Part shown: positions 154 to 1,714 of the stretch, piece by piece
Position numbering within the stretch: position 1 is the stretch's first letter
Layout: each line of letters opens with the position of its first letter
Source of the DNA: Clostridia bacterium
Lineage (GTDB): Bacteria > Bacillota > Clostridia > Oscillospirales > CAG-272
Assembly (NCBI GenBank): GCA_017452475.1
Contig: JAFTMJ010000081.1
Span: 1 to 46,885, forward strand
DNA length: 46,885 bases
Reading direction: 5' to 3'
Notes under the pieces: generated by a model
Databases searched by the model: none
Told to the model about the DNA's origin: nothing
The model's input: only the letters and a program-made list of their open reading frames with translations
Made by a program: the position numbers and the translations under genes

Positions 154-1536
154 TTATTTTAGTCCGGGTATCAAGGCAGTTGCAATTCCCAAGTAGATAA
201 GCAAGGAAAGTGCATCAACAATTGTTGTAATAAACGGGCTTGCCATAACCGCAGGGTCAAGCCCAACTCTTTTTGCAAGGATAGGCAAGCAGCAGCCAAC
301 AAGCTTAGCAACAATTATTGTAATTAATAAAGTGAAGCTGACAACAACGGATATTTCCACAGTAACTGCGTCGTTACCAAGCATAAGGTTATCAATGAGC
401 ATCATTTTTGCAAAGGTTGCAACACCAAGCACAACACCGCAGAGAAGTGAAACCCTCAGCTCCTTAAATAAAATCTTAAAGATATCTCCAAGCTTAATTT
501 CTTCAATTGCAAGACCGCGGATTATTGTAACTGAGGTTTGACCGCCTGCATTACCGCCGGAGCCCATTATCATAGGGATAAAAGCGGTTAAAACAACGCA
601 GCTTGCAAGCTTACTTTCAAATGAGGTGATGATTTGGCTTGTAAAGGTAGAGGTAAGCATAAGTAAAATTAACCACGGAATACGATTCCTCCAAATGGTG
701 AAGGGGCTTGTGGCAAGATACGGCTTATCTGAAGGTATAATAGCAGCCATTTTTTCAATATCCTCAGTTGCCTCCTCCTCCATAACGTCGATAGCGTCAT
801 CGACAGTGATAATACCAACCAAGCGGCTTTCCTTATCAACAACAGGCAGAGCCAAGAGGTCGTATTTGCTCATTTCCTTGGCAACAACCTCTTTGTCCTC
901 GTGGGTGAGGGCAAAAATAACATTTGTCTCCATAATATCGGAGATAATCATATCCTCATCGGAGAGGAGAAGCCTTTTGGCGGTAACATAGCCAAGCAAG
1001 GTTCTGTCAGGCTTTGTAACATAGCAGGTGTAAATTGTTTCCTTATCAACACCTGTACGCTTAATACGCTTTAATGCATCCTCAACGGTTATATCCTCAT
1101 TAAGGCTGACATACTCGGTTGTCATTAAGCTTCCCGCAGAGTCCGGGGGATATTTTAGAATTTCATTAATAGTTTTTCTTGTTTCGGGGTCTGAGTTGTT
1201 AAGCATTCTCTTAACAACATTTGCCGGCATTTCCTCGATAATATCAACAGTATCATCAATGTAAAGCTCTTCAACAACCTGTCTTACCTCATTATCGGTA
1301 AGCGAGGTTAAAAGCTCCTCCTGCTGGTCTGTTTCCATTTCAACAAAAGCCTCAGCCGCTAAATCCTTTGGCAAAAGCCTAAAAAGGGTGGCAAGCTTTT
1401 TTGGGAACTCTGCCAAAATAAGAGATAAGTCGGCAGGCTCCATTTCCTTAATTAATTCCTTAATATCATAGAATTTGCGCTCTTCAAGAAAGGAATCAAT
1501 TTGTTCAATAATTTCTTTTATTTCAAGCTCTTCCAT
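154..1536 (-). CDS. mgtE: Magnesium transporter MgtE
   Basis: Mg2+ (and possibly Co2+) channel/transporter of the inner membrane, about 460 aa, the usual length. The order of parts is typical: an acidic N-terminal helical domain (residues about 10-135), a CBS pair (about 140-265) that senses cytosolic Mg2+, and five C-terminal membrane helices. The TM region carries the family signature GGNAGGQ (about 328) and a late helix with TTIVDALSLLIY, which holds the conserved pore Asp. I place the start at 1536, five bases after a perfect AAGGAGG; an in-frame GTG at 1572 would add 12 residues but would run through the SD. A 25-codon ORF lies 38 bases upstream on the same predicted transcript, and the SD can pair with a CCTCC just after that ORF's stop. 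Confidence 0.96.
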   Translation of the reverse strand: MEELEIKEIIEQIDSFLEERKFYDIKELIKEMEPADLSLILAEFPKKLATLFRLLPKDLAAEAFVEMETDQQEELLTSLTDNEVRQVVEELYIDDTVDIIEEMPANVVKRMLNNSDPETRKTINEILKYPPDSAGSLMTTEYVSLNEDITVEDALKRIKRTGVDKETIYTCYVTKPDRTLLGYVTAKRLLLSDEDMIISDIMETNVIFALTHEDKEVVAKEMSKYDLLALPVVDKESRLVGIITVDDAIDVMEEEATEDIEKMAAIIPSDKPYLATSPFTIWRNRIPWLILLMLTSTFTSQIITSFESKLASCVVLTAFIPMIMGSGGNAGGQTSVTIIRGLAIEEIKLGDIFKILFKELRVSLLCGVVLGVATFAKMMLIDNLMLGNDAVTVEISVVVSFTLLITIIVAKLVGCCLPILAKRVGLDPAVMASPFITTIVDALSLLIYLGIATALIPGLK

Positions 1537-1541
1537 ATTTT

Positions 1542-1563
1542 CCTCCTTATTAAATTTCGGAGG
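1542..1563 (-). promoter_or_regulatory. Possible SD-sequestering hairpin of mgtE
   Basis: The mRNA has CCTCC (1559-1563) pairing with GGAGG of the mgtE SD (1542-1546) across a 12-base loop. The short stem lies directly downstream of the leader ORF stop codon (1575-1577), the geometry expected for translational attenuation. Five base pairs alone are weak; the placement gives it interest. Confidence 0.35.
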
Positions 1564-1574
1564 GGAAGGCACTA

Positions 1575-1652
1575 TTAAAGATTTGCGTTATGAACGCAAA
1601 ATCCCAAATATGGCATTCTCCCTCGAGGGTTGGTGACGTTACTTGCGTCCAT
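1575..1652 (-). CDS. 25-aa leader ORF upstream of mgtE
   Basis: ATG at 1652, TAA at 1575-1577, 25 codons. GGAG lies eight bases before the ATG. The peptide starts MDASNVTNPRGRMPYLG and ends in VHNANL. The ORF begins about 25-30 bases after the predicted transcription start and ends 38 bases before the mgtE ATG. Its last third encodes a stem-loop with perfect 8-bp arms (1582-1589 and 1593-1600, loop of 3), and codons 9-11 form the palindrome CCCTCGAGGG. The layout resembles leader-peptide control as known for enterobacterial mgtA (MgtL), but the peptide is not proline-dense like MgtL and I do not recognise it. Confidence 0.5.
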   Translation of the reverse strand: MDASNVTNPRGRMPYLGFCVHNANL

Positions 1653-1685
1653 AATTAAATCTCCTTTCGTTAATCTTACTTGTAT

Positions 1686-1714
1686 ATTATAATTTTTTTT
1701 GGCGTAAAAATCAA
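1686..1714 (-). promoter_or_regulatory. Sigma-A promoter of the mgtE leader
   Basis: -35 TTGATT (1709-1714), 17-base spacer, -10 TATAAT (1686-1691) on the minus strand. Transcription would start near 1679, giving a leader of about 140 nt before mgtE. Confidence 0.65.

Follow-up and report, generated by a model that had tools for sequence, protein, structure and literature searches.

The leader upstream of mgtE in the DNA analysed here (the window, a 46,885-nucleotide stretch from a Clostridia bacterium) is probably a ribosome-operated attenuator, in which expression of mgtE depends on translation of a short upstream ORF (uORF) and Mg2+ is the most likely signal. Comparison with related sequences supports conservation of the uORF at the level of translation, competing RNA helices in the leaders of the genus, and an association with Mg2+ transporter genes. 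The best reading is that the leader resembles MgtL and MgtQ of enterobacteria in concept, with a peptide of a different family. Leader-peptide sensing of Mg2+ has been worked out in enterobacteria, and the known device of Bacillota is the M-box; the uORF would be a second, apparently undescribed device, located before mgtE and mgtA in many families, including a large family without a detected M-box. It may represent a widespread, so far undescribed route to magnesium sensing, and the many sequences on hand lend themselves naturally to testing whether the behaviour of ribosomes at given codons reports cellular Mg2+.

Organization of the mgtE leader

The leader lies on the minus strand of the window and contains a promoter, a 25-codon ORF with its own Shine-Dalgarno (SD) site, and a CCTCC element (1563-1559) complementary to the mgtE SD GGAGG (1546-1542), followed by the mgtE start at 1536. 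The preliminary description had reported all of these, and they recur in the genus. The features are as follows:

1686..1714, minus strand: promoter TTGATT-N17-TATAAT, hexamers read in the sequence
1661..1665, minus strand: SD site of the leader ORF, AGGAG, an SD also preceding the uORFs of relatives
1575..1652, minus strand: uORF (leader ORF) of 25 codons, MDASNVTNPRGRMPYLGFCVHNANL, conserved in frame
1643..1654, minus strand: segment 1 of stem 1:2, UUAUGGACGCAA, taking in the uORF start codon; covariation
1588..1599, minus strand: segment 2 of stem 1:2, UUGCGUUCAUAA, also used by local hairpin 2:3; covariation
1580..1603, minus strand: local hairpin 2:3 at the uORF end, GAUUUUGCGUUCAUAACGCAAAUC, which excludes 1:2
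1620..1625, minus strand: uORF codons 10-11, CGA GGG, with CGA kept by all members of the genus and GGG by nearly all
1624-1620, minus strand: anti-anti-SD strand A, GAGGG; the extended A:B helix covaries
1559..1565, minus strand: anti-SD strand B, CCCCUCC, whose partner is the mgtE SD or strand A
1542..1546, minus strand: mgtE SD GGAGG, strand C; B:C covariation
154..1536, minus strand: mgtE, magnesium transporter and controlled gene (TIGR00400, 477 bits)

The leader of the window folds more stably than its own shuffles (z = -2.7, from a single sequence), and an Rfam search of the whole window matched no family. Hairpin 2:3 corresponds to the strong stem-loop previously noted for the end of the ORF, but it competes with a second pairing for the same segment; two conserved helices, stem 1:2 and the pairing of the PRG codons with the anti-SD, had been missed. 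An in-frame GTG had also been placed directly after the leader stop. This codon, at 1572, is in frame with mgtE and not with the leader, and it would add an extension of 12 residues to MgtE (MPSPPKFNKEEN, window 1572-1537); relatives lack the GTG, which is probably incidental.

Conservation of the uORF within the genus

Among 29 genomes searched, 16 close mgtE orthologues were found, with 71-85% identity besides the window's own. The uORF lies upstream of mgtE in 16/16 of them, and its SD, start and frame are kept in every case; in G132, a contig break splits the locus, so that the leader is found on L003 and mgtE on L014. The peptide consensus of the genus is MD[AT][SG]..[ST].PRG, with C usually the next residue. 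From the core NPRGRMPYLG proposed earlier, PRG is conserved and the rest is not. At the [ST] position, the codons AGT, TCN and ACN are all used, a sign of selection at the amino-acid level. The BLOSUM similarity of the uORFs peaks in frame 0, at 2.83 compared with 1.03 for permuted columns (0/2000 as high), and omega, taken from single-base codon differences, is approximately 0.23. Three members of the genus carry three additional codons ahead of PRG, with the frame intact, and in 13/14 members the same promoter hexamers precede the uORF start by 57-66 nt. From this conservation we infer that the uORF is translated. Loss of the reading frame, or frame-breaking indels between close relatives, had been named as evidence against such a leader; all close relatives keep the frame. 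The kept frame, the omega value and the covariation of helix B:C described below all support the proposal of a translated leader ORF combined with an SD-masking hairpin as a translational attenuator.

Two leaders of the genus, L018 and L020, have a uORF-mgtE spacer of well over 100 nt and PRS in place of PRG, which suggests a different expression platform. L026, L027 and L028, from genomes of the genus whose only MgtE is a diverged paralogue (27-29% identity), lack the leader.

Competing RNA helices in the genus

The competing-helix switch was examined in the genus, and covariation of each helix was assessed by swapping its arms between species, with the SD hairpin testable in 13 leaders. Stem 1:2, which joins the uORF start to codons ~17-21, reaches -20.7 kcal/mol in native combinations and -14.6 kcal/mol in swapped ones (0/5000 permutations). 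The B:C helix, formed by the anti-SD and the SD, occurs in 13 leaders and covaries with p ~0.001. An earlier test of A:B with short arms gave a weak signal (p 0.034). The extended A:B helix, in which the PRG codons and the bases following them pair with the anti-SD and the bases preceding it, scores -14.4 in native and -11.0 in swapped combinations (0/20000 permutations), and its covariation persists when the invariant core is taken out.

A:B and B:C are mutually exclusive, as are 1:2 and local hairpin 2:3, while A:B encloses 2:3. Covariation thereby supports two exclusive states: 1:2 together with B:C, in which mgtE would be off, or A:B, in which mgtE would be on. The former is also the predicted fold of the bare RNA. 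In partition functions for 13 leaders of the genus, the mean accessibility of the mgtE SD is 0.06 in the bare RNA, rises to 0.39 with the 5' part masked as far as the CGA codon, and returns to 0.05 on additional masking of CGAGGG. Masking of the 5' part raises accessibility in 10/13 leaders. For the leader of the window itself, the prediction for A:B is only 0.24, and the rise on masking is small, from 0.00 to 0.13. As modelled, the alternative helix would free the SD depending on the position of the ribosome.

Distribution beyond the genus

The upstream regions of mgtE were gathered from the family and the order (n=151), and 80/151 contain a uORF accepted by motif: 14/16 in the genus, 31/69 in the family's other genera and 35/66 in the order search. 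The two remaining regions of the genus are the one with the contig break and a near-duplicate that was left out. The 80 uORFs were chosen by motif, and less biased checks were therefore added. A strict pattern, M[DE].[GSD][SGND] with a strong SD, is found in 51/151 mgtE upstream regions; local shuffles give a mean of 0.1 (max 1), and the reverse strand gives 0. Across 245 whole genomes from the order, a DNA pattern (AGGTG, ATG/GTG, GAY, GG, AGY) has 29 matches, 27 of which lie upstream of mgtE (25) or mgtA (2), and the reversed-pattern control gives 2 matches anywhere in the same 245 genomes. In a class sample of other orders, 4/7 pattern matches precede mgtE (control 1). In a phylum sample (control 3), the match in L289 lies upstream of mgtE and that in L293 upstream of mgtA; the other four matches are probably due to chance. 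A family-level protein search with the 25-residue peptide returned chance matches for the most part, a DNA similarity search with the leader returned mainly unrelated promoter or SD matches, and pattern scans of contigs with codon-exact PRGRMPYLG or a fixed SD spacing, patterns that were too strict, returned no matches.

Variants of the uORF, typically MDAGSS...PGRS, are thus found upstream of mgtE across many of the order's families and in a few genomes outside the order; typical peptides are MDAGSSTAGTVPRSRQ, MDAGSTNGTIPGRSTT, MDTGSSANFKPGGRSV and MDSGSRGTVGLCRF. Across orders, the uORFs are grouped here by pattern and gene context. The uORFs are 20 to 79 codons long, mostly 24-31, and their C-terminal half lacks sequence conservation. 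Residue 2 is D or E in 74/80, a figure partly shaped by the motif selection. Outside the genus, no uORF is recognisable in about half of the mgtE upstream regions, so there are other modes of control as well.

The expression platform differs between lineages. A clear intrinsic terminator lies 3' of the uORF in 13/66 leaders outside the genus, where shuffles give a mean of 1.7 (max 3), and in 1/14 leaders of the genus; this stricter count with shuffles superseded a looser one of 48/80. With SD masking in the genus and terminators in part of the others, the leader ORF appears as the common part and the expression platform as the variable part.

The uORFs of L178, L191 and L207, which start MEPGSTCSPEPDGRRR, MEPGSKRSPDPDGQRR and MESGSKRSPEPDGRHR, combine an acidic start, prolines and then arginines, and are nearer to enterobacterial MgtL than the other members.

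Association with mgtA and the M-box

The element is not confined to this locus: besides being widespread, it also precedes mgtA, whose product is a P-type ATPase unrelated to MgtE. At 17 further mgtA loci in the order, the uORF is found at nine (L230-L234, L237, L239, L240, L245). The leaders L237, L239, L240 and L245 have a related yet distinct start, MDSDS/MDSDG ... P..R, and some of them possess a second, overlapping ATG a few bases upstream. Since all controlled genes share a role in Mg2+ uptake, Mg2+ is taken as the signal. An MgtL-like Mg2+ response of the leader is plausible and well supported by gene context.

In L194/L233, L207 and L293, the uORF and mgtA come directly after an M-box aptamer (89-160 bits). 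In L207 (1261-2070), the M-box is followed by two MDxGS-type uORFs in a row (MDAGSRRKYSLN... and MESGSKRSPEPDGRHRS...) and then by mgtA, placing three candidate Mg2+ devices upstream of one gene. In L293 (1284-1512), from a different class, the M-box scores 160 bits, with an MDTGSSTDGENKY uORF ~65 nt further on and then mgtA. L158, L162 and L163 have an M-box before mgtE and no recognised uORF. A search that recovered the controls of Bacillus subtilis and Lactococcus lactis detected no M-box in 123 genomes of the window's family; together with the absence of an M-box from the window, this agrees with the earlier view that no M-box is involved.

Codon choice and alternative explanations

The first part of the uORFs is marked by a pronounced codon choice. 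Within codons 2-16 of the 80 uORFs, CGA makes up 77/116 Arg codons (66%), compared with 5% in mgtE genes, and AGT makes up 110/181 Ser codons (61%), compared with 9%. CGT, which is read by the same tRNA as CGA, accounts for 1/116 Arg codons. The bias towards CGA and AGT declines past codon 16, and the same preference is seen in a partly independent set, the uORFs of mgtA and additional mgtE genes (CGA 16/31, AGT 31/58). Of the AGT occurrences, 111 are in frame and 11 are not, and the hexamer CGAAGT is in frame in 29/29 cases, at differing distances from the start. As the frame is kept while the spacing varies, RNA structure alone is a poor account of the codon signal. In the genus, CGAGGG doubles as strand A, so its conservation there is not creditable to decoding alone. 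The genome of the window has tRNA-Arg genes with anticodons ACG, CCG, TCT and CCT as well as tRNA-Ser GCT, and tRNA-Arg TCG is absent from the tRNA genes found. Inosine tRNA decodes CGU, CGC and CGA (PMC3711424). With no TCG found and Ser GCT present, both CGA and AGU should be wobble-read.

The same attenuator could respond to a signal other than Mg2+, with slow or uncharged tRNA-Arg and tRNA-Ser at CGA and AGU setting the position of the ribosome, and with arginine or general translation stress as the stimulus, as in amino-acid attenuators or rbfL of Staphylococcus aureus. The strong in-frame enrichment of CGA and AGT fits this idea, as does the reading of CGA only by an inosine tRNA in the window genome, where no TCG tRNA-Arg was found; the arginine-sensing rbfL leader of Staphylococcus aureus (PMC13009471) is a precedent. 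The controlled genes, however, belong to two unrelated Mg2+ transporter families, and some leaders combine the uORF in tandem with the M-box, which is itself a riboswitch for Mg2+. CGA usually occurs once or twice per uORF, and runs of one amino acid's codons, by which amino-acid attenuators are recognised, are absent from the uORFs; one or two Arg codons per uORF is unlike such attenuators. This alternative is considered unlikely.

A pure RNA element, such as a new riboswitch for Mg2+ or another metal whose open frame is coincidental and whose translation is irrelevant, is less probable still. It would account for the conserved bases CCNCGAGGG, the covarying helices and the Mg2+ transporter gene downstream, but not for amino-acid conservation in frame at an omega of 0.23, for conservation of SD and start codon, or for a start-to-core spacing that changes by multiples of three with CGAAGT in frame 29:0 and AGT 111 vs 11; nor was there an Rfam match. 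The RNA-only riboswitch was rejected on these frame statistics. The conserved N-terminal peptide could also belong to an independently acting small protein, perhaps one that regulates MgtE or MgtA, whose gene just happens to lie next to the transporter gene. This is very improbable, given an unconserved C-terminal half, a length that varies widely from 20 to 79 codons, and codon and RNA constraints that focus on the first 16 codons and the base-paired segments. A functionless chance ORF and hairpin, suggested by the commonness of short ORFs and a single-sequence fold z of only -2.7, is contradicted by conservation, covariation and the pattern searches, and its probability is negligible.

Proposed mechanism of the switch

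Under the preferred reading, a ribosome-operated attenuator responding to Mg2+, the off state would consist of segment 1 paired with segment 2 and of B paired with the mgtE SD (C). In the on state, strand A would pair with B around hairpin 2:3, and the SD would be freed. A ribosome at the uORF start, covering segment 1 and short of codon 10, would favour the on state, and a ribosome on codons 10-11 would hide strand A and favour the off state. With enough Mg2+, ribosomes would reach the wobble-read CGA, pause over A and then complete the uORF, after which the RNA would return to 1:2 and B:C, turning mgtE off. With little Mg2+, ribosomes would stall or drop off before CGA, having made only the peptide of the acidic start (MD..S); initiating ribosomes would keep segment 1 covered, A:B would form, and mgtE would be on. 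The drop-off step is modelled on MgtL (PMC11282234) and mgtQ (PMC8092293). The direction of the switch follows from this footprint argument, and a stall at CGA could act in the opposite way. In other lineages the uORF is retained, and a subset employs an intrinsic terminator downstream of it instead.

A broader and distinctly tentative reading is that these are Mg2+-sensing leader ORFs across Bacillota in which decoding itself acts as the sensor, through CGA read by inosine and AGU read by G:U, both weak wobble pairs, behind the acidic start peptide; the progress of the ribosome would in this way come to depend on Mg2+. That each lineage would then link this sensor to an output of its own, be it SD masking or intrinsic termination, at times with an M-box in series, is likewise held with low confidence.

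Comparison with known systems

In attenuators of the erm/cat type, the position of the ribosome on a leader peptide frees a downstream SD via alternative hairpins, and antibiotics are sensed. The freeing of the SD by ribosome position and alternative hairpins is the modelled likeness here, whereas the downstream genes are Mg2+ transporter genes. The features common to leaders of the erm/cat/mgtQ type, namely a short ORF with its own SD, a main SD within a hairpin and an alternative helix, are all found.

In MgtL, which precedes mgtA in Escherichia coli and Salmonella, Glu2/Asp4 lead to ribosome drop-off at low Mg2+ (PMC11282234). The likeness consists of a short leader ORF before a Mg2+ transporter gene and an acidic residue 2, and some members, MEPGSTCSPEPDGRRR and MESGSKRSPEPDGRHR, are similar in look. 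The peptide of the window, in contrast, starts with MDASNV and contains neither EPDP nor an alternating acidic/proline N-terminus, and the leader is therefore not filed as MgtL. The uORFs described here also mostly precede mgtE rather than mgtA, use SD masking or intrinsic termination in place of the Rho site of MgtL, and show a strong CGA/AGT codon choice.

In mgtQ, which precedes mgtB in Salmonella, abortive translation of the uORF turns mgtB on, and the acidic residues Asp2 and Glu5 matter (PMC8092293). An acidic residue 2 is shared, as are alternative stems (1:2 and 3:4, or 2:3) that hide the RBS of the transporter gene in one state. Unlike the uORF here, which occurs in many Bacillota, mgtQ has eight codons and a different peptide and is located between two genes of one Salmonella operon.

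The M-box (ykoK, RF00380) also controls mgtE and mgtA in Bacillota, and in some loci it stands in tandem with the uORF or replaces it, but it is an aptamer of ~169 nt without a peptide, and its covariance model is unmatched in the window. In the pe20 operon of Mycobacterium tuberculosis, an M-box is followed by a conserved uORF and controls its translation (PMC12810186). The likeness lies in the layout, the direct succession of M-box and conserved uORF, while the downstream genes and the phylum differ. The mgtE motif in PMC11109978 is confined to Thioalkalivibrio and is offered there as a riboswitch candidate. In the open-access part of the literature, no description of this leader-ORF family was found.

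In the window, sporulation genes adjoin the mgtE locus, as matched by the yqfC and yqfD models and weakly by ylbJ, all under the curated cut-offs; these neighbours suit a spore-forming lineage of Bacillota.
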